NCBI RefSeq assembly: GCF_031624395.1
Contig: NZ_JAMQON010000001.1
Span: 1,302,001-1,366,000, forward strand
Length of the DNA stretch: 64,000 nucleotides
Reading direction: 5' to 3'
From: Halomicroarcula saliterrae
Lineage (GTDB): Archaea; Halobacteriota; Halobacteria; Halobacteriales; Haloarculaceae
The notes under the pieces were generated by a model. That model had not been told where the DNA came from. It made no database searches and was given only the letters and a program-made list of their open reading frames with translations. Below are positions 7,822-24,771 of the stretch, piece after piece; the first letter of the stretch is position 1, and every line of letters begins with the position of its first letter. The position numbers and the translations under genes were made by a program.

Positions 7822-8930
7822 GTCGCCTCCCGGAACGCTTCGATGAGCTCCGACGTCGGGACGTCGAACCGTGCGCGTGCACGGTCGCCCCGTCCGGCGG
7901 TGGTTCCCCCGACGCTGTCGGTCGCGGTCCGCATGGTCGCGGCCACGTCCCGACCGTCGGTCGCCCGGGCGGCCGCCTCGCCGTCGGTGACCACCAGTAC
8001 CAGCGGTTCCGGCGCGTGGTAGTCGGCGACGAGGCGGGCGACGGTCCCGACTGGCATGCCGTCGCCGCGGGCGACGAAGAGGCCGTCGTAGCGGCCGGTC
8101 GTCGCTTCGGCGACGGCGTGGTGTGCCCGTTCGGCGTGGGTCCGCCACGCCGACAGCGCCCGTTCGCGGACGCTGTCGTGGCCCAGCGCGAGCGCGATGC
8201 CCGTGCCCGGCTCCGCGCGTGCGGCGGCGTCTAACACGTCGGCGTAGCCGCCGACCGTCTCGAAGGGGCCGCCGACGTAGGGGTGGAGCCCCCGAGCGAG
8301 CGCTGACGACGCGCGTTCGGGCGCGTCGTCGGTGACGGCCAGCGCGACCAGCGACGCGACGCGTCGGTGGTCGTCCGCGGTCGGTTCGCTCGGGAGGTCC
8401 AGCCCCGCCAGCGCGGCCCGCGCCGCGTCTTCGTCGCCCGAGAAGGGCCCCGAAAGGAGCGTCGAGTGGGCCAGTCCGTCGGCGAGGTCCGCGACGGGGA
8501 CGGCGAGGCCCGGCCGGCGTTCGAGTCCCGCCCGCTCGGCGGCGTCGGCCACCGTCCCGTCCACGTCGCCGCCGGCGACCGTGCCGGCGAGCGCGAGAGT
8601 CGGGTCGGCGGTCGCCCCGAGTTCGCGGGCGATCTGGAACGCCGTGGCGGCGGGCGTCGCCGACAGCGTGTGGTCGGCGCTCGCGTGCGTCCGACCGAGC
8701 GCGACGGTCAGGTCGGCCTCGGTAGTCCGGTCGGGGTCGGCGAAGGGCGCGACGACGCTCGCCTGGAACGGCGTGTCGTCGTCGGCGAGCGCCCGTGCCA
8801 GCACGCCCGTCCCGGCCAGCGAGTCGCCGGTCGCGTCGCTGACGAGCCGAACGAACGTGGCCCGTTCCAGCGCGGCGGCGAGGTCGCTGGCGGCTGGGGC
8901 TGGCGCCTGGTCCCGACCGGTCGTCGACAT
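7818..8930 (-). CDS. RecJ-like (DHH superfamily) protein with degraded catalytic motifs
   Basis: A 370-residue protein in the position usually occupied in haloarchaea by a 'RecJ-like exonuclease' between uS15 and pcc1. The overall layout (an N-terminal domain with LVSDATGDSLAGTGVLARAL, a long helical middle, and a C-terminal DHHA1-like part with LVLVVTDGEAAARATDGRD) fits that assignment. The metal-binding signatures of active DHH enzymes (HxDxD and DHH) are not visible: the first motif reads SDATGDSLA and no DHH occurs. It is therefore probably a non-catalytic paralogue. I recall that Haloferax has inactive RecJ-type proteins partnering active ones, but orthology was not tested. It is coupled to pcc1 by a 4-base overlap and overlaps the uS15 stop by one base. 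Confidence 0.7.
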   Translation of the reverse strand: MSTTGRDQAPAPAASDLAAALERATFVRLVSDATGDSLAGTGVLARALADDDTPFQASVVAPFADPDRTTEADLTVALGRTHASADHTLSATPAATAFQIARELGATADPTLALAGTVAGGDVDGTVADAAERAGLERRPGLAVPVADLADGLAHSTLLSGPFSGDEDAARAALAGLDLPSEPTADDHRRVASLVALAVTDDAPERASSALARGLHPYVGGPFETVGGYADVLDAAARAEPGTGIALALGHDSVRERALSAWRTHAERAHHAVAEATTGRYDGLFVARGDGMPVGTVARLVADYHAPEPLVLVVTDGEAAARATDGRDVAATMRTATDSVGGTTAGRGDRARARFDVPTSELIEAFREAT

Positions 8931-9400
8931 TAGTCGTCGTCGAGCAGCGCGACGGCCTTGTCGTAGCTGTAGGTGAAGTCCTCGTCGAGCTCGTCACCGC
9001 GGTAGTAGTCGACGAGTCGGCGGATCTTCGACTGCGTGTTCTGCAGGGCCCGCTTGTTCTGGTGGTCGCCGGGGTTCTCGTCCATGTGGTCGCGCAGACG
9101 GACTGCACGCTCCATCAGGTTGCGGATGTCCTCGGGGACGTCGGGGTCGGCGTCGTTGTCCTCGAGAATCTCGGTGACCTTCTGGCCGGTCGCGAGTTTG
9201 ACGTTCGGGACCGGGGTGCCCTGAACGCCTTCGTCGCGCAGCTTCAGGCCGATTTCACTGGGCGAGTGGCCCTGTTCGGCGAGTTCGACGACGCGCTCTT
9301 CGACGGCGTCGGCGTCGACGTCGCTCCACTCCGGGGGTTCGTCTGCCGCCGGCTTGTCCGAGTCGGACGAGCCGCGACGGCGTGTATGCATTCGTGCCAT
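8930..9400 (-). CDS. rps15: 30S ribosomal protein uS15
   Basis: A 156-residue archaeal S15. The N-terminal archaeal extension (MARMHTRRRGSSDSDKP) leads into PPEWSDVDADAVEERVVELAEQG. The conserved S15 core follows, with GDHQNKRALQNTQSKIRRLVDYYRG. The archaeal/eukaryotic form is longer than the roughly 88-residue bacterial one, as here. It is the first gene of a four-gene minus-strand operon with the RecJ-like protein, Pcc1 and eS1. Confidence 0.97.
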   Translation of the reverse strand: MARMHTRRRGSSDSDKPAADEPPEWSDVDADAVEERVVELAEQGHSPSEIGLKLRDEGVQGTPVPNVKLATGQKVTEILEDNDADPDVPEDIRNLMERAVRLRDHMDENPGDHQNKRALQNTQSKIRRLVDYYRGDELDEDFTYSYDKAVALLDDD

Positions 9401-9701: not shown

Positions 9702-11495
9702 ATGCCTAACCGTTCGGGTCAGGGTGACCAGCGACAGCTACGGGCACAGTCCGGACCGCTCGGATTCCTGCTCGTGTTCGCGCTGGTCATCGCGGCGACG
9801 ACACTCATCGTAGCGCTGGGCGCGAGTGCGATCGGAGGGACACAGGACACACTCGACGAGGAGCGAGCCGAGAAGGCGATGACGCAACTGGACTCACAGG
9901 CCGCGCTGGTCGCGCTCGGCAACTCGGACGTCCAGCGGGTCGACCTCTCGACGGGGAGCGAAGGCACCTATGCCGTGGAGGACGGCGCCGGCCGGATGAC
10001 GCTGTCCTACAAGAACCAGACGAACGGGAATACGACGACCGTCTTCTCAGAGAAGATGGGGCGCATCGTCTACGAGAGCGGGAGCGGGACGACGATAGCG
10101 TATCAGGGCGGCGGCGTCTGGCGGGCGGACGGCGGCGGGAACGCGGTGATGATATCCCCACCGGAGTTCCACTACCGCGATGCGACGCTCACGCTGCCCC
10201 TCGTCACTGTCGGTTCGTCGGGCACCGTCGGTGACCGCGCGGTCATCTCCCAGCCGAACACGACGCGGTACTTCCCGAACAGGACGAAAAAGAAGGCGTA
10301 CAAGAACCCGCTGGAGAACGCCCGCGTCGAGGTGTCGGTCACGAGCGAGTACTACCGCGCGTGGGGCGAGTACTTCGAGACCCGTACCGACGGTCAGGTG
10401 GAGTACGACCACCCCAACGACAGGGTGACGCTGGCACTGGTGACGCCGCTCCAGAACACCAAGATAACGTCCGCGACGGCGAGTCTCGCCGCCAGCGGCT
10501 CCTTCGAGATCAACGGGAACGCGGGCAACTTCTGTGGCCCCGACGTGTACACGAACAGCTACAACTCCTCGGGAACGACTACCGGCTACTGTGGCCAGTC
10601 CCACGGGACAAACGGCGATATCGTCTACGGCGGCGACGTGGATATCGACGAGGGGTCCGGCGGGGCGAGCATCCGGGGTGACGTCACCTCCGGTGGGACG
10701 GTGTTCGCGGGCAAGGGCGGTCCCGACGTCCTCGGGAACATCAGCTACAGCGCCAAATGCAACAGATGCGATGACGCGATAACGAAGTCTTCGGCGTCGG
10801 AGACCCAGATAAGCGGTATCGAGAAGGCACCGGCGATAAACGGCATCGTCCAGACGCAGGTCAACGAGACTAGCTCGACGAACGACAACGGGGACGCTCC
10901 GATCAGTGGAACCACGCTCGATCCCGGTTCAGTCGAGCTGGAGGCCGGCAGCTACTACCTCACGAACATGGACGTCGCCGGCGGCGACACGGTGACACTG
11001 AACACCACCGACGGAGACATCTACGTCGGCGTCAAGGAGAACGTCGAACTCGACTCGGAGGCGAAGATAGAGGTCATCGGGAACGGGACGGCCAGCGTGT
11101 ACGTCCTCGGGGCCGGTGGGAACGCGAACCAGCTGGAGATGGCGTCCGAGAGCAACATCTCGAACCCGGGCGACGACGCGCCCCAGTTCCGGATGTTCGG
11201 GCTGGACAACTTCACCGCCCAGATAGGCGACGGCAGCGGCGGAAAAAAGGGGCCAGCGAAGTACGTCGGCGTCATCTACGCGCCCCCGGGCACCGACGGG
11301 ACCGGGACGGTCACGCTCAGCAAGGGCGTCGTCTACGGCGGGGTCCTCACCGGGACGACGACTATCGAGACCCTCGGCAGTATCCACTACGACGAGGCCC
11401 TGCGCACACAGAAGGTGCTCACACAGAGCGAATCCATCGTTCGGGTGACGTACATCCACGCCTCGACCAACGAAGTGCAGGTCGAAGACGGCTGA
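9702..11495 (+). CDS. DUF7289-like prepilin-type protein with DUF7305-like beta-rich C-terminus
   Basis: A 597-residue secreted protein. Residues 1-45 form a prepilin-like N-terminus (polar start, then GPLGFLLVFALVIAATTLIV). Residues 45-250 follow the DUF7289 pattern shared by four proteins of this locus: VYESG, then YQGGGVWRADGGG, a PP motif, and YYRAWGEYF. From about 255 a long Gly/Thr/Asn-rich region has the features of DUF7305-like or bactofilin-like repeats: VELEAGSYYLTNMDVAGGD, YVGVIYAPPGT and a terminal SIHYDEALR. Several N-x-S/T sites suggest surface glycosylation. Two Cys pairs near 275-360 could form disulfides. It probably sits in or tips a pilus-like structure. It is convergent with the DUF7289 gene at 11497, one base between the stop codons. 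Confidence 0.7.
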   Translation: MPNRSGQGDQRQLRAQSGPLGFLLVFALVIAATTLIVALGASAIGGTQDTLDEERAEKAMTQLDSQAALVALGNSDVQRVDLSTGSEGTYAVEDGAGRMTLSYKNQTNGNTTTVFSEKMGRIVYESGSGTTIAYQGGGVWRADGGGNAVMISPPEFHYRDATLTLPLVTVGSSGTVGDRAVISQPNTTRYFPNRTKKKAYKNPLENARVEVSVTSEYYRAWGEYFETRTDGQVEYDHPNDRVTLALVTPLQNTKITSATASLAASGSFEINGNAGNFCGPDVYTNSYNSSGTTTGYCGQSHGTNGDIVYGGDVDIDEGSGGASIRGDVTSGGTVFAGKGGPDVLGNISYSAKCNRCDDAITKSSASETQISGIEKAPAINGIVQTQVNETSSTNDNGDAPISGTTLDPGSVELEAGSYYLTNMDVAGGDTVTLNTTDGDIYVGVKENVELDSEAKIEVIGNGTASVYVLGAGGNANQLEMASESNISNPGDDAPQFRMFGLDNFTAQIGDGSGGKKGPAKYVGVIYAPPGTDGTGTVTLSKGVVYGGVLTGTTTIETLGSIHYDEALRTQKVLTQSESIVRVTYIHASTNEVQVEDG

Positions 11496-11496
11496 G

Positions 11497-12243
11497 TTAG
11501 GACTCGATGTCGACCGCGATGTCGTGGTAGACGACGTACACCTGGTCGATGTCGTTCCCCGGCTGGTACGTACACTCGATATCGTCACCTGACGACGCAC
11601 AGGTGAACCCGGCTCCCTCGAAGTACGCCCTCCAGAGCTCCGTCCGCGGCGTCCCGCGGAGCCGCACGGTGACGCTGTCGACATCGTCGGCCGTGGTGTT
11701 GTACGCCACCGAGGTGGCCTGTCGTCGCCCCCGGACGAGCACCGTCGACCCGCCGAGTGCCTGACGGTCCGGCCGGTTGAGACCGACGACGGAGACGAGG
11801 ACGCGCTCCTCGCTGACGACGAGCGGTGGGTCGTGGACGCGGATTCCGCCCCCGTCGGCCGTCCGGAACACCGCCCCCGCTTCGTACACCAGTTGGCGGT
11901 CCTCGGCGCCGCGGTAGATTATCGGCCGGAGCCGCCACTCGGGGCTCCGCCAGGTCCCACTACTGTCCGTGACGTTTACCAGCATCGTGACGTTCTCCCC
12001 GGTCTCCAGCTGGGCCTCGCCGAGACTTATCTCCGTAGCGCGGCTCGGTGCGTCCCGTCGATGGATGTCCGCGAGGTTATCCGCGAGCACGTCGAAGGCG
12101 CGCTCCGCGTTGTCCATCTGCTCGGCGGTGCGAGCGTCCTGGAGGGTGCTGAGCCCGCTCACCGAGATGATACCCACGGCGGACACGACGAGGCCGAACA
12201 CCAGCACGTAGCTGACGACCTCGCTCACGGCGCGCTCAGACAT
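11497..12243 (-). CDS. DUF7289-family prepilin-like protein (cassette A, fifth gene)
   Basis: A 248-residue protein starting MSERAVSEVVSYVLVFGLVVSAVG, a type III (prepilin-like) N-terminus with a single hydrophobic helix; the rest is predicted to be exported. It carries the DUF7289 signature LVYEAGAVFRTADGGG followed by PP, and a late WRAYFEGAGF plus a Cys pair. The start at 12243 was chosen because the upstream eight codons lie inside the preceding gene. It overlaps the DUF7266 gene by 8 bases, so translation is likely coupled. It is the last member of the five-gene cassette and the counterpart of 19605-20309. Confidence 0.75.
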   Translation of the reverse strand: MSERAVSEVVSYVLVFGLVVSAVGIISVSGLSTLQDARTAEQMDNAERAFDVLADNLADIHRRDAPSRATEISLGEAQLETGENVTMLVNVTDSSGTWRSPEWRLRPIIYRGAEDRQLVYEAGAVFRTADGGGIRVHDPPLVVSEERVLVSVVGLNRPDRQALGGSTVLVRGRRQATSVAYNTTADDVDSVTVRLRGTPRTELWRAYFEGAGFTCASSGDDIECTYQPGNDIDQVYVVYHDIAVDIES

Positions 12244-12685
12244 CCTGCACCTCCAGATGTTCGTCACCGGCGTCGTAGCTGATGCGGATGGTACCCCCGC
12301 TCACGGCGCTGTCGCTGAGGTCCGTCTCCGTCGTGACGCCGACCCGAACGCTCACCTCGGGACGGGACGTGTTGAGGACGACGGACGACCGGCTCTGGTC
12401 AAGCCCGACGGTGTAGGTCGACCCAGTGACCGAGTTCGAGAACGTCTGGTTCACGGAGACGACGACCGGGCTGTCGGTGTCACCGGCCCGCACCAGGCGG
12501 TCCGCCCGCTCGATGTCCGCCGCCAGCTGCTGGCCGACGACGGTGAGTTCGTCCCTGATGACCTGGTCGCGCTGGGTCTCGACGTAGCTCCCGCCGGCGA
12601 TGATGAGCCCGGTGATGAGCAGCGTGGCGATGGCCAGCGAGAGGACGTAGCCGAGCGTCGTCGAGACCGCACGCGTCTCAGACAT
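12236..12685 (-). CDS. DUF7266-family prepilin-like protein (cassette A, fourth gene)
   Basis: A 149-residue protein with MSETRAVSTTLGYVLSLAIATLLITGLIIAG at the N-terminus, one membrane helix, and then DVERAD-type polar sequence with the conserved VETQRDQVIRDEL stretch. It aligns well by eye with the cassette B protein at 20306-20755 (SYVETQRDQVIRDEL against SYIDTKRDNTVRQGL, with similar ends ISYDAGDEHLEVQ and VVYDATEPCLEVR). It was given the second in-frame ATG (12685), where homology begins. It is probably a minor pilin or pseudopilin; exact role unknown. Confidence 0.75.
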   Translation of the reverse strand: MSETRAVSTTLGYVLSLAIATLLITGLIIAGGSYVETQRDQVIRDELTVVGQQLAADIERADRLVRAGDTDSPVVVSVNQTFSNSVTGSTYTVGLDQSRSSVVLNTSRPEVSVRVGVTTETDLSDSAVSGGTIRISYDAGDEHLEVQDV

Positions 12686-13697
12686 CCGCTTCACCCGGGG
12701 CGACCCGAACGTCGGTCTCGTAGCGCATATCGGTCGTCAGATACGTATAGCGGACCGTCACGTCGTAGAGCGCGGGGCTCGACGCCGGGGCGGTGCGCAG
12801 GGGCGAGACCTCGGGACTGAGCGGCGACCGCCGGTACAGGACCATCGAGAAGTTCCCGGAGATGGCGTCCGCGTTGGCAAAGGAGATGTTGTACGACTCG
12901 GTCGTCCCGGGTGTTACCCCCGTGCCGGCGCCGAAGTGGAAGTTCCGTCCGGTCGGTGCGGTGCCGAGCGCGTCACACTCCTCGCCGTCGATAGTGCCGC
13001 CGGTGACGTCGATGTCGACGGACGCTCCCGGCCCGTCGTGAGTCACTGTACAGTCCTCGACGGCGGTGGTCGAACCGACGTCCCGGAGCGTCCGAACGTG
13101 GACGGTGTCGCCCCCCGATTCCCAAATGCGTGCGCGCCAGCTCTCCTGTACGCCCGTGGCCGGCGTCGACTGGGCCCGTATCTCGAAGGCCGAGCCGTTG
13201 TCCGTGGCCGTGATGGAGTTCGCCTCTATCTCGAACGCCCGCGTCCCGTTGGCGCCGTCGGCCCGGGAGACCAGGCCGGCCACCTGGTAGCTCTCGTCGC
13301 CGGCGTCGTCGGTGAACGTCGAGTTGTTCGACTGGTAGACGCGCACCCCCGGCGTCGACGACTGGTAGGCCACGTCGACCACGCGCCCCGACCGGGCCGA
13401 CTGGCGGCCCGTCTGCTCGGAGATGTTTCTGACGCCGGCCTGAACAGCGGTGGCGAGCGCCGCGGCGGTGGCGTTGTCGTTGCGGTTCGCCGCCGCGACG
13501 CTGTCACCGACGTTCGCCTCGACCATGGCCCGCATCGAGAGCGCCCCGTTGCTCCCCGTCGTCTCTCCCCGACTCGCCAGGTTCTCCGTGAATATCGCGG
13601 AGTTGACGATGAGCGCCATCACGACGAAGATGACCGCGAGCGCGAACGCGGCCACGAGGATAATCTGCCCGCGGTCGTCCCGCCTCAGATCCGCCAC
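12678..13697 (-). CDS. DUF7261-family prepilin-like protein (cassette A, third gene)
   Basis: A 339-residue protein with MADLRRDDRGQIILVAAFALAVIFVVMALIVN at its start. An RGQ-type motif before one hydrophobic helix recalls bacterial TadE/TadG pseudopilins. The remaining 300 residues are predicted exported, rich in Ser, Thr, Asn and Gly with many N-x-S/T sites, and end in a small beta-like segment (YDVTVRYTYLTTDMRYETDVRV). It overlaps the upstream DUF7288 gene by 13 bases and the downstream DUF7266 gene by 8. Its counterpart is 20752-21603. Confidence 0.75.
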   Translation of the reverse strand: MADLRRDDRGQIILVAAFALAVIFVVMALIVNSAIFTENLASRGETTGSNGALSMRAMVEANVGDSVAAANRNDNATAAALATAVQAGVRNISEQTGRQSARSGRVVDVAYQSSTPGVRVYQSNNSTFTDDAGDESYQVAGLVSRADGANGTRAFEIEANSITATDNGSAFEIRAQSTPATGVQESWRARIWESGGDTVHVRTLRDVGSTTAVEDCTVTHDGPGASVDIDVTGGTIDGEECDALGTAPTGRNFHFGAGTGVTPGTTESYNISFANADAISGNFSMVLYRRSPLSPEVSPLRTAPASSPALYDVTVRYTYLTTDMRYETDVRVAPGEADV

Positions 13698-14269
13698 GCG
13701 ACCACCTCCACCTGCACCGTGTTGTACAGGTTGCCGCCGACGTCCGGCATCGGATAGGTGACGTTCTGGGCCCCGAGAGCCGTCCCGCTCGGCGTCCCGT
13801 CAGCGTCGTACAGCGGGTCGTCGTCCCGGAGTGTGACCGTGTGGGCCGCCGTGACGGCGTTGTCCGTCGGCACGCCGCTGTAGACGTACTGTCGCGTTAT
13901 CGGCTCCCCGTCGTCGTTCTGGAACCGGAAGTAGACGTTGTAGGCGATGCCGTTGTCGTTGAACGCCCGCTCCAGCATGCGCCCGAAGCGGTTGTCCGGC
14001 GGCCCCGACGTGTAGAAGCGCTGGACGTCGACGCCGTGGTGGCGCGCGGAGCTGTTGTTCCAGTACAACACCGCCGGCTTCAGCGCCCCTGTCTGTGCGG
14101 CCACCGCCAGCACGCCCTGTCCGGTCGCCTGCTGCTGGTTCTCGATATGCTGGCTGGACGTGCTGGCCGATAGCGGCGTCACAGCGGTCATCTGTAGCGC
14201 GAAGATGAGACTCGACAGCATGAGCAGTCCAGCGACCGTCGCCTCCAGTGTGTGTGCTTGTGCTCGCAT
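13685..14269 (-). CDS. DUF7288-family prepilin-like protein (cassette A, second gene)
   Basis: A 194-residue protein, N-terminus MRAQAHTLEATVAGLLMLSSLIFALQM with the 'QA-x-TLE' prepilin-like motif. Its cassette B equivalent at 21597-22175 begins MVDRGQAYTLEGVLAAILVV. Both continue with a Leu/Gly-rich stretch (VLAVAAQTGALKPAVLYWN; VLTLAGESGALRDAVLCFS) and a YNVYFRF/YNLYFSY motif. Both end with a YNTVQVEVVAWRI/YNVVEVRLVVW strand. The gene follows the DUF7287 gene with one base between stop and start. It is probably a minor pilin-like component. Confidence 0.75.
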   Translation of the reverse strand: MRAQAHTLEATVAGLLMLSSLIFALQMTAVTPLSASTSSQHIENQQQATGQGVLAVAAQTGALKPAVLYWNNSSARHHGVDVQRFYTSGPPDNRFGRMLERAFNDNGIAYNVYFRFQNDDGEPITRQYVYSGVPTDNAVTAAHTVTLRDDDPLYDADGTPSGTALGAQNVTYPMPDVGGNLYNTVQVEVVAWRI

Positions 14270-14270
14270 G

Positions 14271-14855
14271 TTACCACATCTCCACGAACAGCGTCACGTC
14301 CGCCCCGTCGATCGAAACCACCCGGACCGACGTGACCGACGGCTGGGTCGTCGGAACTGGGTCGCCCCGGGCGAACGTCGTATCACAGTCCCCGCTCGAC
14401 GATTCTACGAGCCCCGTGTCCGTCCCGGTGCTGTCCCAGCACACGAACTCCTCTCCGCTCCCGGACGCCGTGAGGTTCCCCCGGAGACTGACGTTCACCT
14501 GCTGATAGCTCGACGCCACCCCGACCTGCGATTCGAGGCTTCCGCCCGGGAACGGACAGCCCGCCGAGTTGCCCTCGAAGAACGTCACCGTACAGTAGCT
14601 GTCCAGTGCGTAGGGCTCAGCCGGGGACGCCAACATCCCGACCGCGAGCTGGTCCGCGACTCTGTTTGACGAGACCGTTTCGTCCTGTGCACTCGCCGTG
14701 AACGGCGAGAGGATACCCGGAATGAACAGGAAGATGAACAGCAACACCGCGAGGAAGATGCTCACGCCGATAGCGAAGTCTATCGTCGTCTGTCCCCGGT
14801 CGGTTCTGCGAGCCGCTGGGGAGTCCCGCGGCTCATCGCTGTGCTGTGTGCCCAT
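14271..14855 (-). CDS. DUF7287-family prepilin-like protein (cassette A, first gene)
   Basis: A 194-residue protein. A polar leader (MGTQHSDEPRDSPAARRTD) precedes RGQTTIDFAIGVSIFLAVLLFIFLF, the strongest TadE-like 'RGQ..hDFAhG' motif of the set. The exported part holds two Cys pairs and ends with VVSIDGADVTLFVEMW, like the cassette B member (VVQLTNYDCGTVCWVVVRIW). The ATG at 14855 was chosen because the longer frame has an unrelated N-terminus. It heads the minus-strand cassette. The divergent tRNA-Ala gene starts 150 bases upstream. Confidence 0.75.
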   Translation of the reverse strand: MGTQHSDEPRDSPAARRTDRGQTTIDFAIGVSIFLAVLLFIFLFIPGILSPFTASAQDETVSSNRVADQLAVGMLASPAEPYALDSYCTVTFFEGNSAGCPFPGGSLESQVGVASSYQQVNVSLRGNLTASGSGEEFVCWDSTGTDTGLVESSSGDCDTTFARGDPVPTTQPSVTSVRVVSIDGADVTLFVEMW

Positions 14856-14967
14856 TTTTAGACCCGTTGTGACCCGCCGACTGTTTCGTAATCGACTGTC
14901 GTGGACGATATTAGCCATTGTGGCCGAACCACGCTATCGACTGTCGTCCCCGAGTCGCTTCGATGGG

Positions 14968-15005: not shown

Positions 15006-15077
15006 GGGCTCGTAGATCAGGGGTAGATCACTCCCTTGGCATGGGAGAGGCCCCGGGTTCAAATCCCGGCGAGTCCA
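15006..15077 (+). tRNA. tRNA-Ala, anticodon GGC
   Basis: The 72 bases fold into a standard cloverleaf. The acceptor stem is GGGCTCG/CGAGTCC with discriminator A, the D stem GATC/GATC, the anticodon stem CTCCC/GGGAG with loop TTGGCAT, and the T stem CCGGG/CCCGG with loop TTCAAAT. The anticodon GGC reads GCC and GCU alanine codons. The third acceptor pair is G3-U70, the universal alanine identity element. No CCA is encoded and no intron is present. It lies inside the pilus-like locus between cassette A and the 1268-residue protein gene. Confidence 0.97.
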
Positions 15078-15550: not shown

Positions 15551-18500
15551 ATGGGTCAGGGCATTTGCTTATCGTCGGACGGACGCGGGGTCTCTAACGT
15601 CGTTGCGGTGATACTTCTCGTCGGGCTCACACTGGTAGGGGTCGTCGCTATTCTCGCGACAGGAGTGGTGACCATCGACGAGACGAACCAGGATGCGAAC
15701 ATGGAGATCGCCGAGGAGTCGATGCTCCAGATAGACAGCGCACTAGAGCAGGACAGTGGTGGCAACACGTCGGTATCGGTGCCGGACCAGTTGGAGGGGA
15801 AGGTGGCCGTCTCGAACGACCAGTCGTACCGGCTAACGCTGAACGAGAACTCCCAGTGTACGACCGGCTCACGCGACCTGAGCAGCGTCGAGTACGAGGA
15901 GAACGGGCAACGGGTGGCCTACGAGGGGGGCGGGGTGTGGCGGCTGACTGAATCGGGTGCGACGATGACGTCGCCGCCCGGGGTCGAGTACGACGAGGGG
16001 TCTCTCTCCGTCTCGTTCATCGAACTCGACGGTCGGATCACCGACTCCAGCGAGTTCACCACGAAGGCCGACACCTCGGAGCAGCGGCGACACCAGTTCC
16101 GGCTCACTCGTGGGCTGTACACCGACGGCACGTATAGCTCGCCACCGGCCGACGGCAGCCTCAACTACATCTGCCGACCCACACAGGTAGAGAACGCCAC
16201 GCTGACCATCGAGAACAGCCAGTACGCACGTGCGTGGAAGGACTGGGCCGAGAGCAACTACGACAGCGATCTGGTGACTGTCAAGACGAGCGGAGACGTC
16301 GAGCCCGGAGACGACGTGACGATTCGGTATTCGCTGGGAGACGTCTCGGAGGCGGAGTACGAGGTCACCGATATCCGAGCGAGCCGGGCCTCGGGTAGCG
16401 GTCCCGTTACGGTGAACGCGACGGTCGAGAACGTCGGTGGACTGCGGGAACGGAAGGATATCGAGTTAAGGTACGGCACCTACAGCGAAACCAAGACGAA
16501 AGGAATCGGCGGAGGCGATACCAAGTACGTGACCTTCGAGATTCCAAAGAGCGAGGTGGTGACGGGGACCAACACGATGACCGTCGAAACGCCCTCTGAT
16601 ACAGCGAACGAGGACATCACGTTCAACAGTATCAGCGCCGTCCCCAAGGTCACGCTCCAGGCCGTCTCGGTTCCCAGCGAAGTCGCCGTCGACGCGGCGC
16701 CGAGTGGGGCCAACCTGGAGGTGATAAACACCGGCGGAATGACCGCCTTCGATACGGTCACCATGGATATCAGCGACGGGCCCGAAGTGACCTACAACGT
16801 GACGGTGGCACCGGGTTCGTCGAAGGACCAGCCCGTGGGAGCTGACCTGCCGACGGACAACACCGGCTCACACGACCTCGTGTTCAGTAGCCGTCTGGCG
16901 TCGAGCGACGTGAGCAAGACGCTCACAATCGGCGACGTCGGCTACTTCGCGCTGGAGGACGTGTCAGCGCCCTCCGACGTCCGCCGGGGCGAGACAGTCC
17001 GACTGGAGGCGACAGTCAACAACACCGGTATCAAGGAACTTCGAGGGGAGATCGACGCGAACATCACCAACCTCGATACGGGTACCGAAGTCGAGGCAAT
17101 CGACCCGACGGAAACGCCGGTAACACTGAGAGGAACTGCGACGGGGCCGGACACGAAGGACATCTCGCTTTCCTACACGGCCAACACCCGAGGGAACTAC
17201 AGTTACCGCCTCGAAACGCCGAACGAAACCCGAATCGGTCAGTTCTACGTCGGGATACCCCCGGGGCCGAACCTCATCGTCAGGAGTGTGAACATCACCC
17301 AGGACCCGGTCGATATGGGTAGCGAGACGACATTCGAGGTGGAAGTGGCAAACACCGGTACGGAACCGGCGGACCAGACGGTCAGGCTGAACACCTCCGA
17401 CGGGAAAGTGGTCAAAGAGACGGACCTGAACGTCTCCTCGGGTGACTCGGAGGAGTTTGACTGGACAGTTACCACAGACGAATCGGTGTTTATCGACGGA
17501 TTCAACGAGCTCAACGTCACTACCGAGAACGTCACGCTACCGACGTCTCTCAACGTCAAGGACCCGAGTACGTACTCGAGAAACGACGACGGCAGCGTCA
17601 CGTTCACCGAGGCGGTAAACGTGACAGTGTCGATGGAGGGCGCGGAACTCGAGGCGAACACCTCCGCCGAAGGCGAGGAAGTCTTCGAGTACGGCGTGAC
17701 TGTCGAGATGTCGCTGGTGATAGAGAACGAATCGGGCCGGTTCGAGAAGGTGCTGTGGGAGGACGTTCCGGAGACCGGAGCGGACGTCGGCCATCCGATC
17801 GCCGAGCGGGCGATGCAACAGGACGACGAGCCGAACTCGTATACCGAAACGCTCCGGTTCGACAACGGGACTACCTTCGCTCTGTACGCGACGAGTTACT
17901 ACTGCCGTGACTGGGACGTGACGGACGTGGTGCATCCGGACCGTGGTATCGCCGGGAATCTTCGGGATACGACCGGGATAGCCTGCGATGACGCGGGCGG
18001 TGAACGGCTCCGAATCGGACAGGGAACGAATACGGAAAACGTCGTTATCAAGAAAGACGGGGAGAGCGTTCCCGCCTACGACTCCGGCTCGCCGTTACAG
18101 CTCACGCTCGACGACATGCTCGGAGACGAGAAGATAGACGACGACGGGAACCTCAATCTCGCGAACGGTGAAGCGGTGTTCCTCTACGAGCTCTCCCAGC
18201 AAGACGCCGACCCGGCCAACGCGACAGACAACACGGGCGGCGACCCGGACTACAACGACGCTATCGCGCGGTTCCAGGTCGAAGAGATAAACAAGACGGT
18301 CAAGACAGAGCCCAGCTTCGAGATTACGAACGTGGACGTGCCGGCACGGGTCGGTGCGGGCAACGACGCCGGGATGGAAGTGACCGTCCGCAACAACGGT
18401 GGACAGGCCGGAAAGACGCCCGTCGAAGTGACGATGGACGGCAAGACGTATCAGAAGACAACCGACGAACTCTCCACCAACGAGACCGACGATCTGACCT

Positions 18501-19357
18501 TCGTGCTGGATACGTCCTCGGGCTCGGTCGGGAAGAACTACCGGGTCACAGCCAGTGCACTCGAGACGCCGAGGGCCGAGTGGGTCGGGTTCGTGACCGT
18601 CGGCGAACCCAGCGAGCCGTTCTTCCAGGTGAGCGGACTCACCGGGCCGGCCGTGGCCGACGACGACGACTCACCGGAGGCGGCAGTCAACATTACCAAC
18701 GTCGGAACCAGCGACGGCAGCCAGGAGGTCGTTCTGGAGTACAAAAACAACGACACGGCGAGTGCGACGTGGCAAGAGGAGAGCACCACGACACTCTCGA
18801 TAGACCCCGGTGAGACGGTAAACACCACCCTCGCCCTGCCCGATAGCAAAGGGAACTACACATACCGCGTCAGGACGGAGAACGTCACGAGTTCGGACCT
18901 CGAGCTGTTCGTCGGCTCCTCGGACGTCTACGTGGCCGAAACGAACTCCATAAACATCGGTGCCCAGGAGTACGACGCAGGGACCCTCGTAGAGCGCAAA
19001 GGCAGTATCACGTCGCTGAACGTCGAACTGAAGAACAACGGGACCGTCGGAGACGAGCGGGACGTCCGGCTGGAGATCTCGAACGACAGCTCGACACCGG
19101 TCGACCGGACGATACGCAAACAGGTCGGTGGCGGCGACCTGCTCGGACAGGGCAGCGTCCCCGCCTACGCCGACTTCAACGCGGAGCTCGACCCCGGCTT
19201 CTACACCTACACCATCACGGTGTACGACGACACGCCGTCGGACGGGCCCGGCCACGAGGTCAGTGGGCAGCTCTACCTGCGCGCCGTATCCAGCGACATA
19301 GCCGACGCCGACAACTCCCCGATAACGATAGACTCGGGGACAGTGACTGTCGGCTAA
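15551..19357 (+). CDS. Giant prepilin-like surface protein: DUF7289-like module plus CARDB/Ig-like repeats
   Basis: A 1268-residue protein. Residues 1-40 are a prepilin-like N-terminus (GRGVSNVVAVILLVGLTLVGVVAI). Residues 50-240 carry the locus-wide DUF7289 signature (VAYEGGGVWR, a PP motif, YARAWKDWAESN). From about residue 270 to the end come roughly seven Ig-like modules of the CARDB kind, each with the 'V-x-V-x-NTG/NVG' strand: VNATVENVGG, LEVINTGG, LEATVNNTG, FEVEVANTG, MEVTVRNNGG, AVNITNVG, LNVELKNNG. A different domain at about 675-910 has three Cys. Many N-x-S/T sites suggest heavy N-glycosylation. It probably projects from the cell surface or a pilus as an adhesin or stalk. It has its own promoter and a T-run terminator. 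Confidence 0.75.
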   Translation: MGQGICLSSDGRGVSNVVAVILLVGLTLVGVVAILATGVVTIDETNQDANMEIAEESMLQIDSALEQDSGGNTSVSVPDQLEGKVAVSNDQSYRLTLNENSQCTTGSRDLSSVEYEENGQRVAYEGGGVWRLTESGATMTSPPGVEYDEGSLSVSFIELDGRITDSSEFTTKADTSEQRRHQFRLTRGLYTDGTYSSPPADGSLNYICRPTQVENATLTIENSQYARAWKDWAESNYDSDLVTVKTSGDVEPGDDVTIRYSLGDVSEAEYEVTDIRASRASGSGPVTVNATVENVGGLRERKDIELRYGTYSETKTKGIGGGDTKYVTFEIPKSEVVTGTNTMTVETPSDTANEDITFNSISAVPKVTLQAVSVPSEVAVDAAPSGANLEVINTGGMTAFDTVTMDISDGPEVTYNVTVAPGSSKDQPVGADLPTDNTGSHDLVFSSRLASSDVSKTLTIGDVGYFALEDVSAPSDVRRGETVRLEATVNNTGIKELRGEIDANITNLDTGTEVEAIDPTETPVTLRGTATGPDTKDISLSYTANTRGNYSYRLETPNETRIGQFYVGIPPGPNLIVRSVNITQDPVDMGSETTFEVEVANTGTEPADQTVRLNTSDGKVVKETDLNVSSGDSEEFDWTVTTDESVFIDGFNELNVTTENVTLPTSLNVKDPSTYSRNDDGSVTFTEAVNVTVSMEGAELEANTSAEGEEVFEYGVTVEMSLVIENESGRFEKVLWEDVPETGADVGHPIAERAMQQDDEPNSYTETLRFDNGTTFALYATSYYCRDWDVTDVVHPDRGIAGNLRDTTGIACDDAGGERLRIGQGTNTENVVIKKDGESVPAYDSGSPLQLTLDDMLGDEKIDDDGNLNLANGEAVFLYELSQQDADPANATDNTGGDPDYNDAIARFQVEEINKTVKTEPSFEITNVDVPARVGAGNDAGMEVTVRNNGGQAGKTPVEVTMDGKTYQKTTDELSTNETDDLTFVLDTSSGSVGKNYRVTASALETPRAEWVGFVTVGEPSEPFFQVSGLTGPAVADDDDSPEAAVNITNVGTSDGSQEVVLEYKNNDTASATWQEESTTTLSIDPGETVNTTLALPDSKGNYTYRVRTENVTSSDLELFVGSSDVYVAETNSINIGAQEYDAGTLVERKGSITSLNVELKNNGTVGDERDVRLEISNDSSTPVDRTIRKQVGGGDLLGQGSVPAYADFNAELDPGFYTYTITVYDDTPSDGPGHEVSGQLYLRAVSSDIADADNSPITIDSGTVTVG

Positions 19358-19604: not shown

Positions 19605-20309
19605 TCAGTTTATCACGTTGATGCGGACCGTCGTCTGATGAACGACGACTCGCTCGATGGAGTCACACGTGTAGCTCGGACCGGAGCCCGTCCAGCCGCC
19701 GCTCGTGAGCGTCTCCCCCCACGAGTCCGGGCGCGCGGTCTCGTCGGTGTAGACGGTGACGCTGTCGGTCTCTCTGGTCGTGAGGCTCTGGTTGACGAGT
19801 TCGCTCTCCAGCGTGACGCGGCTGTCGGACGAGATACTGAACTCGCCGACGAGCCGCGTCACCGGGAGATGCGCCGTCTGGTCGCCACACCGAAGCGGTG
19901 GCCGGCGGACGACGACCGACCCGCCGTCCTGTGCACGGAACAGCGCGCCGCTCTCGTAGACCAGCTCGGTGTCGGTGTCGGTCGTCCGGACCAGCGCGCC
20001 CGTCCTGTTCTCTATCCGCGTCGGGTTCCCGCTGACGCTCCACTTGAGCAGCGAGTCGGAACGGGTGAGGCTGTGCCCCTGGAGTTTGATCGTCGTGGAC
20101 CGGCGCGGGGCGCTGGCAGTTCGGTGGTCGGCGAGCGTCGAGGCGTAGTTGCGCATCGTCTCCTCGGCGACGTTCGATTCGGTGCCCGCCTGAACGTCGC
20201 CCAGCGTCCCGATGCCGGTGACCGTGACGACACCGATCATGAAGATGATGGTGGCGAACACGAGCGTGAACGAGACCACGTCGGACACGCCACGCCGTCG
20301 GCTGGTCAC
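19605..20309 (-). CDS. DUF7289-family prepilin-like protein (cassette B, fifth gene)
   Basis: A 234-residue protein beginning MTSRRRGVSDVVSFTLVFATIIFMIGVVTVTG, one hydrophobic helix after a short basic/polar start. It has the DUF7289 motif LVYESGALFRAQDGG then PP, a Cys pair (RCGDQ and YTCDS) and a late W-containing segment. It overlaps the DUF7266 gene by 4 bases. It is the cassette B copy of 11497-12243 and is convergent with the giant protein gene. Confidence 0.75.
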   Translation of the reverse strand: MTSRRRGVSDVVSFTLVFATIIFMIGVVTVTGIGTLGDVQAGTESNVAEETMRNYASTLADHRTASAPRRSTTIKLQGHSLTRSDSLLKWSVSGNPTRIENRTGALVRTTDTDTELVYESGALFRAQDGGSVVVRRPPLRCGDQTAHLPVTRLVGEFSISSDSRVTLESELVNQSLTTRETDSVTVYTDETARPDSWGETLTSGGWTGSGPSYTCDSIERVVVHQTTVRINVIN

Positions 20310-20755
20310 GCGGCTCGCACCTCCAGACAGGGCTCCGTCGCGTCGTAGACGACCTGGATCGGTCCGCCCGTGACACGGCTCTCACAGACAGCGGTCGTGT
20401 TCTTGAATCGAACCTGCGTCCGGCGGTCGCTCGCCGTCGAGTTGATGTAGATTGTCGTCCGGTCGGCGCTCGGGTCGAGGTGGATACGATACCCCTCGCC
20501 ACCGACCCTGTCGGGGTACGCCGAGGAGAACGAGATCTCTTGTGAGACACCGTCGGTGTCGAACTGGTCGAGTCGGACGAGGTCACTGGCCACGCCCGAC
20601 CCGACGTCTATCAGTCCCTGTCGGACCGTGTTGTCCCGTTTGGTGTCGATGTACGACGACCCGCCCAGAAGCAGGCCCGTAATCAGTATCGTCGAAATGC
20701 CGATGGTCAGCGCCTGCGTGACGGCCGGTGAGACCGCGCGTGTGTCCCCGATCAT
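20306..20755 (-). CDS. DUF7266-family prepilin-like protein (cassette B, fourth gene)
   Basis: A 149-residue protein, the same length as its cassette A copy. N-terminus MIGDTRAVSPAVTQALTIGISTILITGLLLGGSSYIDTKRD: a 'TRAVS' start, a hydrophobic helix, then the SY-hDTKRD turn. The C-terminus VVYDATEPCLEVRAA matches the cassette A end. It is coupled by 4-base overlaps to both neighbours. Role unknown; probably a minor pilin-like subunit. Confidence 0.75.
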   Translation of the reverse strand: MIGDTRAVSPAVTQALTIGISTILITGLLLGGSSYIDTKRDNTVRQGLIDVGSGVASDLVRLDQFDTDGVSQEISFSSAYPDRVGGEGYRIHLDPSADRTTIYINSTASDRRTQVRFKNTTAVCESRVTGGPIQVVYDATEPCLEVRAA

Positions 20756-21603
20756 GACGTTTCGTTCACCAGGATAGTTCGTTCGTAGCTCGTGTCCGGC
20801 CCGACGTACTCGATCTCGACCGCCGGGTTGAGTACGCCGGGGGTGACAGCGGGGAACGTCCCGGAGCCGACGAACCTGAACTCGCCATCGTTACTACCGG
20901 ATTTATCGAAGGTGACCGTGTACGGACCCGAGAGCGACGCGTCGTAGGTTGTGAACGTCCCGCCGCCCGAACACGTCCCTTCGGTGATGTTCACTGTTAC
21001 CGGCGTGGTGCCGGTACAGCCCGGCACCTCGCTCCAGCCGGTGCCGTCGTCGACGGACACCTTGGTGGTTCCCGTACTCGGTTCCTCGTACACCCGGACG
21101 GCCCAGAACCCTGAGTCACCCGATATTCTGACCTCGTAGGCGGCCGTAGTCCCGGGGTTTTGGACGTTAGTGACAGTGAAGTTGAACTCGGTTATCCGCT
21201 CCGACCCGGTGACGAGGTCGTCGTTCCAGTTCCCGTTCGACGGGCCGGGTCTGGACAGGGTACTCCGGTCGACCTCTCGCAACGAGTCGCCGGGGCTCAC
21301 CGTGGCGTTGACGTACACCCCGTCTCGCTGGGCGCTTGTCCGGGTGTAATCCCTCGAAAAGTTCCAGAGCGAGCGATTCAGCTCGTTTATGTTGCTCGTG
21401 TCCATCTCGTTCGCGAGCGCGCGGACGCCCCGCTCGACGCTGGCTTCCCGGTCGGCCGTCCTGTCGATGTCGCTCACCGTCTCCGAACTGGCCGCGCTCT
21501 CGGACACGACGAGGCTGTTCGACAGCGGGATGGCCGTCAGGAACACGATGGCGATGGCGAGCCCGCCGAGGAGCAACACCTGCCCGCGGTCGTCGGCTAC
21601 CAT
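20752..21603 (-). CDS. DUF7261-family prepilin-like protein (cassette B, third gene)
   Basis: A 283-residue protein starting MVADDRGQVLLLGGLAIAIVFLTAIPLSNSLV, equivalent to the DDRGQIILVAAFALAV start in cassette A. The exported region includes RGVRALANEM and many N-x-S/T sites. The end (PAVEIEYVGPDTSYERTILV) resembles the beta-like end of the cassette A protein. It overlaps DUF7288 by 7 bases and DUF7266 by 4. Confidence 0.75.
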   Translation of the reverse strand: MVADDRGQVLLLGGLAIAIVFLTAIPLSNSLVVSESAASSETVSDIDRTADREASVERGVRALANEMDTSNINELNRSLWNFSRDYTRTSAQRDGVYVNATVSPGDSLREVDRSTLSRPGPSNGNWNDDLVTGSERITEFNFTVTNVQNPGTTAAYEVRISGDSGFWAVRVYEEPSTGTTKVSVDDGTGWSEVPGCTGTTPVTVNITEGTCSGGGTFTTYDASLSGPYTVTFDKSGSNDGEFRFVGSGTFPAVTPGVLNPAVEIEYVGPDTSYERTILVNETS

Positions 21604-22175
21604 ACGACCAGTCGCACCTCCACGACGTTGTACAGCGACGACTTCTCGTCGGTGTCCTTCTGGATGTAGAACTCCGAGTCGTCCTGGATGTCGATCGGAA
21701 TCGAGTTACACCGGTTCCCGTTGCGGATGTCCATCCCGTCGGTCAGCGTCACCGTCGTCGAGGCGGCAGCCGCACTCGTCGGTGGTCGCCTGTCCGACTC
21801 CTGTGAGGTCTCGGAGACGAGTCGCGTCTCCCGGCTCTCGCTCTCGTTCCAGTAGCTAAAATAGAGGTTGTACTGGTCGGCCTGACTGTCGAACGTGGTG
21901 TTGAGCATGGACTCGAAGGTCGAACGGGGTTCGGGACGGTCGCCGTCGATGGCGCGAGCCGACGAGAAACAGAGCACCGCATCGCGCAACGCTCCCGACT
22001 CCCCGGCCAGCGTCAACACGTCACTGGCCCGGTGCTTGAGTTCCTGTGTCTCGCCCCGCGTCGTGTCTTCCCAGGCGCGGGTATCGATGGCCTGCAAGCC
22101 GTACACCGTCGCTGTGACGACCAGAATGGCCGCGAGGACTCCCTCCAGCGTGTACGCCTGACCGCGGTCTACCAT
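21597..22175 (-). CDS. DUF7288-family prepilin-like protein (cassette B, second gene)
   Basis: A 192-residue protein beginning MVDRGQAYTLEGVLAAILVVTATVYGLQAID. The start at 22175 was chosen by this conserved N-terminus and by the 7-base overlap with the preceding DUF7287 gene; a longer frame upstream lies within that gene. Shared blocks with cassette A are the Leu/Gly-rich VLTLAGESGALRDAVL, the FESMLNTTF/FGRMLERAF region and the YNLYFSYW motif. Confidence 0.75.
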   Translation of the reverse strand: MVDRGQAYTLEGVLAAILVVTATVYGLQAIDTRAWEDTTRGETQELKHRASDVLTLAGESGALRDAVLCFSSARAIDGDRPEPRSTFESMLNTTFDSQADQYNLYFSYWNESESRETRLVSETSQESDRRPPTSAAAASTTVTLTDGMDIRNGNRCNSIPIDIQDDSEFYIQKDTDEKSSLYNVVEVRLVVW

Positions 22176-22693
22176 ATCCGAACCACCACCCAGCAGACCG
22201 TCCCGCAGTCGTAGTTCGTCAGCTGGACGACTCGCGAGGACGTGACTGGCTCGGAGCGACGGTACTCGCCCCACGCCAGTCGCGACCCGTCCATCGCAGG
22301 CGTCCGGTCGCCGCTGTCGAGCGTCGTCCCGTTGACGATGCTCACGTTGACTATGGGGTCCGTCCGGCGGTCCGACTGCACGTCTGCACCGGCGGCCTCG
22401 ATGAGACTGGTCAGTTCCTTCGTGGCACCGGCCGACTGTGCTCTCGAAAGATTGACGTCGATACTGCCGGGGCCGGAGTCGTATCTGAGGACGTTGCGGT
22501 CCCCCTCCGTGCTGTAGTTCTCGACGACGTACGAGGCGATACGGTCGGCCTGGGGCTGTTCGACCCCGGGCGAGGTCCCCTCGTACACCGCCAGCGCACC
22601 GCCCTGCGTGAAAAAGAAGGCACCGATAACCGTCACTAGGAGGACGCTAACGCCGATTGCGAAATCCTGAGTGGTTTGTCCCCGAATCCCCAT
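22169..22693 (-). CDS. DUF7287-family prepilin-like protein (cassette B, first gene)
   Basis: A 174-residue protein with MGIRGQTTQDFAIGVSVLLVTVIGAFFFT, matching the RGQTTIDFAIGVSIFLA start of cassette A. It contains a Cys pair near the end (YDCGTVCWVVVRIW). It starts 35 bases after the stop codon of the platform protein gene, so the cassette may be read from the same transcript as the secretion ATPase and platform genes. Confidence 0.75.
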   Translation of the reverse strand: MGIRGQTTQDFAIGVSVLLVTVIGAFFFTQGGALAVYEGTSPGVEQPQADRIASYVVENYSTEGDRNVLRYDSGPGSIDVNLSRAQSAGATKELTSLIEAAGADVQSDRRTDPIVNVSIVNGTTLDSGDRTPAMDGSRLAWGEYRRSEPVTSSRVVQLTNYDCGTVCWVVVRIW

Positions 22694-22728: not shown

Positions 22729-24771
22729 TCATCCGACCGCCATCCACACAACTAAAGCGATCGTCGAGAGGATGACGGCGAACTTCACGCCGGCCATCAG
22801 TTTCACTTCGCGGATATACCCGGCGATAAACGACGACAGCAACGCCTGCAGGGTGACTGCGTGGAAAAACAGCATCGACAGCGCGTCGGTGTCGATGTTG
22901 CTGCCGAACTGGCCGCCCCCGGCGGGGCTACCCCCGCCGGCGCCGCTTGCCTGCTGGGTCAGCCCCGACATCACGTCGAGGAACTGGGTCTTCAACAGCG
23001 CCATGACGCCCAGCAGCGTCAGATAGGTCATGATGATGATGACCGTCTGCATCCGGGTTCGGGACTTCCGGGAGCGGTCGATGTCGTCCTGGTTCTCGGC
23101 GGCCTGTGCCGCCGTCGACAGCACGTCCTGAATCTGGCTGGAGGCCTCCTGTGCCTCCGCGATGAGCTTCACCGTCCGGGCCATCCGCGGGACGTGGTAC
23201 TTGTTGTTGAACTCCCGCAGGGCATCCTTGAGGCTGGTCCCGTAGTTCACCTTCGCGTGCATCGTCTCGAACTCGTCCGAGAGCTTACCCGCCGACGTCT
23301 CCGAGACGACCTTGATGGACTCGAGCAGCGTCATGCCGGTGTCGTTCGCCGAGGCGAGCTTCCGGAGGTTCTCCGAGAGGTTCCCGATGATGGCCTTTCG
23401 GGAGCGCTGGTTCCACTCGTAGAAGATGGCGAGCGGGATGAAGTTGATGTACATCGGTACGTACACCCAGAAGAACGTCCCCGAGACGGGGTTGGACTCC
23501 ATGCCGGAGATGGTGAGCGGAGCCCATCCCAAGACGATGCTCAGGACCACGGCGAGGACGGAGAGGGGCGCCGACAGCCCCAGCACCAGCATCGGGTGGT
23601 CACGGAAGAACAGATGGGGCTTTTTTAGTATCTGGACCAGTTCGTAGGTGCCTTCACGGCCCTTGATACGGTCGAAGACGCTGTAGGACCCGGTGTAGGA
23701 CTCGATGAGGCCGAGGTTGAAAACGGCGATACCCTCGTCGACGACGATCTCCTCCTCGTCGGAGTTGGGCCTGAGGTAGCCGTCCCCGACCGCGTCCTGA
23801 GTCACCGTCGAGACCAGCACCAGGAAGGCGATGCCGGTCAGCGGGATGAGTCCGTAGACGGTCCCGTAGATGAGCATCCCCTGCGCGTTGCCCATCATCG
23901 ACATGATGACGAGGATGATGATGAGCAAGAGCGGGAACAGCGAGAGCGTCATGTACATCTCGCCGAACAGCTCCAGCGTCTCCAGCATCTTCTCCTGTTC
24001 CTGCTTGGTCGTCCGCATGTGCTTTTCCTTCTGGTCCTCGAGGAACGAGGTCATGTCCCCACCGGAGTTGATGATAGACAGCATGTCGGTGAGGAACTGC
24101 GAGAGCTCGTCAGAGGGGGTCTGTATCGCCTGGTTCCGAACGGCGGTCCGGTAGTCGGTGTCGAAATACTCCGTCTCGAGGACGATGGACTTGAACTCCT
24201 GTGCGACCTCGCCGTAGGTGTCGTCGGCCTCGCCCATCGCCTGCAGGATTTCGAGCTGGTTCAGGCCGCCCACGGAGAGCGCGTACATGAAGGAGATGGC
24301 GTCGGAGAGGAGGATGTTGATTTCGCGTTCACGCGCGCTGGCGCGGAAATAGGGTATCGAAACGAGCGAGCCGAAGCCGACGCCGAAGCCGATCGCCCCG
24401 AAGACGACGCCGGTGACGAGGATAATAAAGGGGAGTTTCAGCGTGTCGATGATCGAGAGCAGCATCTCGTTCTGTATCGAGATCCCGATAAAGGTCGGCG
24501 CCTCCGACCCGGAGAAGAAGATGGTCACGGCGAGAAAGCCCAGCAGGCTGCCGACGAGCCAGAGGGCGACGCCGGCGATGATACCGACGGCGAGCGCCCG
24601 CGCGAGGAACATCTCGACGTTGTCGGCCATCCGGGCCTGTGCGAGTTTGTCCTCGACGCTGTCGACGAACTCGCCTTCCTCGTCGAACAGGCGCTGGTAG
24701 GCCGGGTAGAAGGCGTCACCGAGGGTGCCGCCGCTGGCGAGGCGCTTTTGCTCTCTCGTGTCGAGACTCAT
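22729..24771 (-). CDS. pilC: Type II/IV secretion system F-like membrane platform protein (TadC/PilC/ArlJ type)
   Basis: A 680-residue inner-membrane platform protein, about double the usual single T2SSF unit. A cytoplasmic N-terminus is followed by a hydrophobic region (about 55-130), a first helical T2SSF domain (about 150-290, with ARERE-INILLSDAISFMYALSVGG), and more membrane spans (about 290-345). A second T2SSF domain (about 460-600, with GNLSENLRKLASANDTGMTLLESIKVV) and C-terminal membrane spans complete it. This is the architecture of archaeal pilus platform proteins. The start overlaps the end of the ATPase gene by 4 bases (ATGA, 24768-24771). A Gly/Ala loop (GAGGGSPAGGG) lies near residue 630. 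The gene symbol is by analogy. Confidence 0.9.
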   Translation of the reverse strand: MSLDTREQKRLASGGTLGDAFYPAYQRLFDEEGEFVDSVEDKLAQARMADNVEMFLARALAVGIIAGVALWLVGSLLGFLAVTIFFSGSEAPTFIGISIQNEMLLSIIDTLKLPFIILVTGVVFGAIGFGVGFGSLVSIPYFRASAREREINILLSDAISFMYALSVGGLNQLEILQAMGEADDTYGEVAQEFKSIVLETEYFDTDYRTAVRNQAIQTPSDELSQFLTDMLSIINSGGDMTSFLEDQKEKHMRTTKQEQEKMLETLELFGEMYMTLSLFPLLLIIILVIMSMMGNAQGMLIYGTVYGLIPLTGIAFLVLVSTVTQDAVGDGYLRPNSDEEEIVVDEGIAVFNLGLIESYTGSYSVFDRIKGREGTYELVQILKKPHLFFRDHPMLVLGLSAPLSVLAVVLSIVLGWAPLTISGMESNPVSGTFFWVYVPMYINFIPLAIFYEWNQRSRKAIIGNLSENLRKLASANDTGMTLLESIKVVSETSAGKLSDEFETMHAKVNYGTSLKDALREFNNKYHVPRMARTVKLIAEAQEASSQIQDVLSTAAQAAENQDDIDRSRKSRTRMQTVIIIMTYLTLLGVMALLKTQFLDVMSGLTQQASGAGGGSPAGGGQFGSNIDTDALSMLFFHAVTLQALLSSFIAGYIREVKLMAGVKFAVILSTIALVVWMAVG

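Follow-up and report, generated by a model that had tools for sequence, protein, structure and literature searches.

The question raised by this locus is what a protein with a prepilin N-terminus and a large β-rich C-terminal part does beside archaeal pilin genes. The protein (597 residues) is encoded at positions 9702–11495 (+) of the window, that is, of the whole 64,000-nucleotide stretch analysed (contig NZ_JAMQON010000001.1 of Halomicroarcula saliterrae, positions 1,302,001 to 1,366,000); from its open reading frame (ORF) and Pfam matches it was classed as a modular minor prepilin of the composition DUF7289 + bactofilin-like + DUF7305. It is probably a modular minor type IV pilin whose solenoid, of the ComZ/tapirin type, acts as an adhesin or receptor at the tip of the pilus.

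Pfam search of the 597-residue protein gave DUF7305 (PF23981) at residues 364–569 (10791–11408, +; 137.5 bits, curated cut-off 27; profile positions 3–184 of 185; E = 6.3e-40), far beyond chance, and the DUF7305 identity named in an earlier note on this DNA was thus confirmed. DUF7289 (PF23960) was matched at residues 14–242 (9741–10427, +; 99.7 bits, curated cut-off 27; profile positions 1–215 of 238; E = 2.4e-28). The FlaFind-type motif rule for class III prepilin signals picks out RAQS at residues 14–17 (9741–9752, +), just before a hydrophobic stretch; with the DUF7289 match and a predicted 55-residue helix this bears out the prepilin N-terminus that had been proposed. Counting this protein, 46 of the 49 archaeal DUF7305 ORFs have a hydrophobic N-terminus, and the class III motif was present in 45 of these 46; RAVS processing sites are documented in the available text of PMC4371748.

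The short Gly/Thr/Asn-rich strands quoted in the earlier note were found in the ORF (9702–11495, +), which reads ...GSIHYDEALRTQKV..., and the composition of residues 252–597 (Gly 15.3%, Thr 10.7%, Asn 6.6%, Ser 9.5%) exceeded throughout that of a pool of ten other long window ORFs, chosen by length with their gene status unchecked (Gly 8.7, Thr 6.3, Asn 3.0, Ser 5.5%). A DUF7305/bactofilin region had been placed over the last 340 residues, its stated start falling at residue 252, so that it takes in almost all of the β-rich part; this part is indeed the C-terminal 346 residues, but DUF7305 takes up only 206 of them, and the preceding 121 (residues 243–363; 10428–10790, +) are, by profile, a separate bactofilin-like stretch. 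The IHYDEAL motif lies at residues 561–567 (11382–11402, +); the protein does not literally end at SIHYDEALR, about 28 residues following it to the C-terminus, with a tail at residues 574–597 (11421–11492, +; predicted local distance difference test, pLDDT, below 50) whose TYLHxSxNxVxV pattern is found in most archaeal relatives.

AlphaFold2 (AF2) models were obtained for the 597-residue protein (alignment of 16 sequences; mean pLDDT 61.0) and for a Shewanella homologue (12 sequences; mean pLDDT 62.2). In the first model residues 252–573, comprising the bactofilin-like and DUF7305 parts, are predicted to form one β-solenoid (ten-residue block means of 68–96 over residues 301–560 and of 92–96 over residues 411–470), in keeping with the β-helix for which a structure prediction had been suggested; within the pilin module the helix at residues 20–74 was the sole predicted part, residues 39–254 having mostly pLDDT below 50. 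For the archaeal model, fold comparison by VIA-align was limited to the 121 chains ranked highest by Foldseek; among these, ice-binding proteins led (8x1o, Z 17.5; FfIBP, 4nu2, Z 17.4, root-mean-square deviation (rmsd) 2.7, 194 residues aligned), tied with ComZ (6qvi; model residues 247–573 on 127–508, Z 16.7, rmsd 3.6, 254 aligned); tapirin followed at Z 8.5 (rmsd 4.1, 182 aligned), and the sole bactofilin among the chains fitted model residues 422–564 (Z 7.5, rmsd 2.0, 96 aligned). For the Shewanella model the values were: tapirin, Z 18.1 (rmsd 3.7, 279 aligned); ice-binding protein, Z 17.1 (3.2, 186); ComZ, Z 14.8 (rmsd 13.9, 319 residues). The tapirins of Caldicellulosiruptor (4wa0, 6n2b, 6n2c) are thus close to the bacterial model but much less so to the archaeal one, and they were absent from the sequence matches of the three profile searches. 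The DUF3494 ice-binding proteins, which share the predicted solenoid fold, are secreted ice binders and not pilins. At the sequence level, ice-binding chains were reached by the bacterial profile (A2; best E = 1.9e-4), by the mixed profile (A4; 4nu3, E = 0.0037) and, for one protein, by the archaeal DUF7305 profile (A1; E = 0.017, near ribosomal L21 chains, whose E-values began at 0.024); the single 597-residue sequence gave a best E of 0.23 against the PDB.

ComZ, a competence pilin of Thermus thermophilus, is the known system that resembles the protein in architecture: it consists of a pilin part and one large β-solenoid whose nearest solved relative is FfIBP, and its gene, that of a minor pilin, stands beside other pilin genes as the haloarchaeal gene does (PMC6561018, available text). 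It differs in that its pilin part is bacterial and GspK-like, and in that its solenoid is inserted before the last pilin strand; in the haloarchaeal protein the solenoid may be either inserted or appended, none of 50 hits of a stand-alone DUF7289 profile having fallen on the C-terminal tail. ComZ has been argued, on structural grounds, to occupy the tip only, its solenoid being too bulky for the shaft, and it binds DNA (both PMC6561018, available text), an activity demonstrated for ComZ only. The place of ComZ among the top fold matches and its DNA binding would suit a receptor in DNA uptake, the role proposed for ComZ; yet no sequence match to ComZ was obtained, 6qvi being unmatched by phmmer (up to E = 10) or by the three profiles (up to E = 1). 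The net charge over residues 364–573 is −17, which would not favour DNA, though acidic proteins are general in halophiles, and the same fold serves other ligands in ice-binding proteins and tapirins. The chance that DNA is the ligand therefore appears slim.

When 18 haloarchaeal and 12 bacterial DUF7305 proteins were compared by hhalign over their whole length, the DUF7305 part aligned with E = 2.8e-19. With the parts cut out, the archaeal and bacterial DUF7305 profiles aligned at prob 98.5, while the archaeal middle part (residues 243–375) reached prob 96.2 against its bacterial counterpart and prob 78.2 against haloarchaeal bactofilin-type segments; in each case none of 60 column shuffles scored as high. 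DUF7305 had no profile similarity to the haloarchaeal bactofilin-type set (prob 0.7; equalled by 2 of 60 shuffles), and a bactofilin identity was rejected for it on this comparison, even if part of its fold can be matched to a bactofilin structure. The 597-residue protein itself gave no Pfam match up to E = 1 to Bactofilin (PF04519, cut-off 27.9 bits) or to the ice-binding family (PF11999), the latter being matched below cut-off in one homologue (L067). Some other haloarchaea (e.g., G076, G226) have Bactofilin matches over cut-off that share a reading frame with DUF7305; among ten homologues scanned, Bactofilin was matched over cut-off in one (L067) and below it in four, the matches in bacterial proteins lying in the middle. 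The middle part also carries a motif, D/N-S-Y-N/D-S, common to the archaeal and bacterial sets (here NSYNS, residues 285–289; 10554–10568, +). The description 'bactofilin-like' accordingly stood by profile for residues 243–363 and by fold for residues 422–564, and failed by profile for DUF7305 itself; as a description of fold it suits both parts, because the one bactofilin structure listed aligns inside DUF7305.

A bactofilin-like polymer, serving as cytoskeletal or matrix scaffold, would account for these two likenesses (the profile probability of 78.2 for the middle part and the Z of 7.5), but it is barely credible with a DUF7305 profile at 0.7 against bactofilin, an export signal, and ice-binding proteins and ComZ as the best fold matches of the whole module. 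Four cysteines are located in the bactofilin-like part (residues 278, 297, 353 and 356; window 10533–10769), spaced as C-x18-C and CxxC; they are kept in some close relatives and missing in others, and disulfides or a metal site are possible there. Five of the ten homologues scanned by Pfam had a pAdhesive_15 match overlapping DUF7305; in the phylum this family was met in 3 of 120 genomes, once over cut-off.

The bacterial counterparts were collected from genome contigs with one DNA pattern for G-I/V-HYDEAL, so that homologues with another motif were missed and IHYDEAL is conserved in this sample by construction; neither the DSYDS-type motif nor the bactofilin-like part was a selection criterion. 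The scan gave 35 loci, of which 18 encode bacterial and 3 encode archaeal DUF7305-like proteins and 14 are unrelated or frameless. All ten proteins put through Pfam, nine of these bacterial ones and one of the archaeal, were over the DUF7305 cut-off; PilX_N was present below cut-off in four of the ten, and Tad domains over cut-off in one. The bacterial prepilin-like proteins (Shewanella, Chromohalobacter, Kushneria, Omnitrophota and others; among L065–L096) share with the archaeal protein both C-terminal segments, in the same order, with DSYDS-type and IHYDEAL motifs; they differ in having a PilX_N-like (below cut-off) or Tad-type N-terminus in place of DUF7289, and another tail. Ten neighbour proteins were scanned (L065, L067, L072, L094): eight had the N_methyl pilin motif, one was PilM and one was unmatched; the names PilV and PilW were read by eye, Pfam giving only N_methyl or GspH. 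The occurrence of the same module on bacterial pilus-linked proteins, which the earlier note had proposed, is supported by these profile matches and by prepilin or pilM neighbours where scanned. Two loci stood out in the sample: in L095 (3006–4163; Eisenbacteria) a short protein of 386 residues has N-terminal Tad and Tad_C where the others start PilX_N-like, and in L070 (1–2802, 7325–7999; a gammaproteobacterial contig) PilY1-like and PilX-like genes, so named by eye, occur together with a separate DUF7305 protein.

The pilin heads were compared in the same manner. Archaeal and bacterial heads had no detectable similarity by hhalign (prob 1.3), the positive control, stand-alone DUF7289 against the DUF7289 module of the 597-residue protein, giving prob 99.4; with the hydrophobic helix included a weak alignment appeared (31 columns, prob 35.5, above 60 of 60 column shuffles), which the helix alone could explain. 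A relation between the two pilin parts is thus unsupported. Judged from the sequences, the bactofilin-like + DUF7305 module is common to archaeal and bacterial pilins with apparently unrelated heads, and the factor said to be shared across domains of life is reduced to the predicted solenoid module, without the pilin heads that carry it. In an unrooted tree built from 32 archaeal and 14 bacterial domains, a branch with support 99/94 separated the archaeal from the bacterial sequences. The tree omits the archaeal proteins L074 and L089 as well as 4 of the 18 bacterial ones, and five of its rows have long branches.

The bacterial gene orders also bear on whether the protein might act like GspK or PilX, initiating assembly or capping the tip, with a structural solenoid that would prime the filament without any outside ligand. 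Homologues in L067, L072, L066 and L077 follow apparent pilV and pilW (by eye), that is, they hold the position of pilX, whose role is that of an assembly initiator. The pilin part of ComZ, too, is GspK-like (PMC6561018, available text). Against such a role, 13 of the 60 genomes searched had no match (7 of these 13 being less than 90% complete), the number of matches per genome varied from 0 to 3, and the C-terminal module is unlike between the two operons of this window, CARDB against DUF7305; it is on balance unlikely.

The surroundings of the gene agree with the archaeal pilus locus that had been reported, with pilin operons, pilB and pilC beside it. A single base separates it from a stand-alone DUF7289 pilin gene, tail to tail (11497–12267, −; E = 9.7e-65), the end of a minus-strand operon of five: DUF7287 (14271–14918), DUF7288 (13685–14269), pilin-like DUF7261 (12678–13697), pilin-like DUF7266 (12236–12694) and DUF7289, all placed by Pfam match. 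The second operon, also on the minus strand, has the same order: DUF7287 (22169–22693), DUF7288 (21597–22274), a DUF7261-like protein under the Pfam cut-off (20752–21603; E = 1.8e-4), a DUF7266 pilin (20306–20755) and a stand-alone DUF7289 pilin (19605–20309; E = 6.1e-38); it lies directly behind genes for a PilB-type assembly ATPase (T2SSE, PilB3_C; 24768–27281, −) and a PilC/TadC-type membrane platform (T2SSF; 22729–24771, −; E = 6.4e-28). Converging on it is a second modular DUF7289 protein (15551–19357, +; 1268 residues; DUF7289 E = 1.3e-18) with CARDB (E = 2e-10), so that each operon has a large DUF7289 protein as tail-to-tail partner, DUF7305 for the first and CARDB for the second. All four DUF7289 matches of the genome, two stand-alone and two modular, are at this locus, one pair per operon. 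The prepilin pathway might instead serve only for export and membrane anchoring of a surface solenoid outside any pilus, archaeal prepilin peptidases being reported to cut non-pilins as well, e.g., substrate-binding proteins (PMC4371748, available text); such anchoring is improbable given that DUF7289 makes up the entire length of two stand-alone proteins within the pilin operons, and that the gene faces one of them. Other features of the region are an S15-Halobacteria ribosomal leader (Rfam RF03143; 9472–9537, −) ahead of the rpS15 gene (8930–9400, −), from which the start of the DUF7305 gene diverges at about 160 bases, and a tRNA gene (15006–15077, +) between the two pilin operons.

DUF7305 was found in 47 of 60 genomes searched, this one included, and in 30 of 32 genomes of near relatives; two copies within about 2 kb occurred in 23 of the 60, this genome having one. 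Across the phylum 44 of 294 genomes gave a match, 34 of them from the same order or nearer, and among the ten beyond the order only G206, G300 and G316 were over cut-off. The DUF7289 module was present in 47 of the 49 archaeal DUF7305 ORFs (this protein included), and 35 of the 49 had a DUF7289 gene converging on them from within 400 bp (23 of 25 in the genus of this genome, 12 of 24 elsewhere). PHROG 29908 matched residues 10–595, nearly the full length (E = 1.2e-163), perhaps through a mis-bounded provirus in that library. A viral origin was considered and discarded: tblastn against 50,697 phage records yielded no more than three matches, all with E of at least 1, and no relative was found among viral contigs, where a motif scan gave four loci and the one ORF with the motif was a different protein. 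The plasmid matches of the haloarchaeal protein at E < 0.1 were all to haloarchaeal records except for one in Paenarthrobacter (E = 3e-3; annotation unrelated); the Kushneria protein had none.

Several points weigh against a pilus-tip solenoid. The AF2 model gives no confident fold for the pilin module, and the input to both models was shallow (16 and 12 sequences). According to its title, a 2025 paper warns of confident but unrealistic AF2 solenoids for repeat proteins. Foldseek E-values were weak (archaeal model, best 0.032, ComZ 0.10), and for the Shewanella model the list was headed by a curli subunit (E = 0.019), then tapirin (0.025). ComZ was not matched by sequence, 14 of the 49 archaeal ORFs had no facing DUF7289 gene in the stretch examined, and the literature search yielded no publication naming DUF7305; DUF7289, 7288, 7287, 7266 and 7261 were likewise named in none of those found.

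The pilus-tip adhesin or receptor nevertheless remains the reading preferred here, and it would work as follows. The class III signal (RA|QS) and the hydrophobic helix would bring the protein to the membrane and then into a pilus made by the neighbouring pilin, pilB and pilC genes, the DUF7289 head presumably pairing with the pilins of the facing operon. Residues 252–573 would form one β-solenoid of ComZ, ice-binding-protein or tapirin type, too large for packing within the filament; the protein would therefore sit at the tip and display the solenoid there, as a module that may serve for touching something. Modular pilins of this general kind are reportedly those of the Raynaud type. An example is PilB of Streptococcus sanguinis, where likewise a bulky module on a small pilin is displayed on the filament, the module being vWA and the pilin bacterial (PMC8179133, available text); the census of modular pilins in that paper used IPR012902, and the word 'archaea' is absent from its main text as available. 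On the archaeal side, arCOG02911, perhaps the DUF7289 family, is a predicted minor pilin of euryarchaeal pili with duplicates, about 250 to 550 residues long and usually FlaFind-positive, for which, by contrast, an Ig-like fold was suggested, 'bactofilin' and 'beta-helix' being absent from the main text as available (PMC4858521). As far as the sources were available, the literature search turned up no haloarchaeal pilus with a named tip adhesin. DUF7305, modular pilins and ComZ are each already known; the link between them was absent from the literature found.

A wider proposal is rather doubtful: that one tip module has been kept by bacterial and archaeal type IV pili since an old split while the heads were replaced, and that loci such as this are of a plug-in kind, each five-pilin operon being served by a DUF7289 carrier of its own whose tip module (DUF7305 or CARDB) can be exchanged. 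A single early transfer would give the same picture in the tree as an old split. Should the pilus-tip solenoid hold, a gene known to Pfam by domain numbers only would become a testable candidate for a tip adhesin, the two pieces of its module would read as one domain, and one type of solenoid would connect the competence pilin ComZ, bacterial prepilin-like proteins and archaeal pili.
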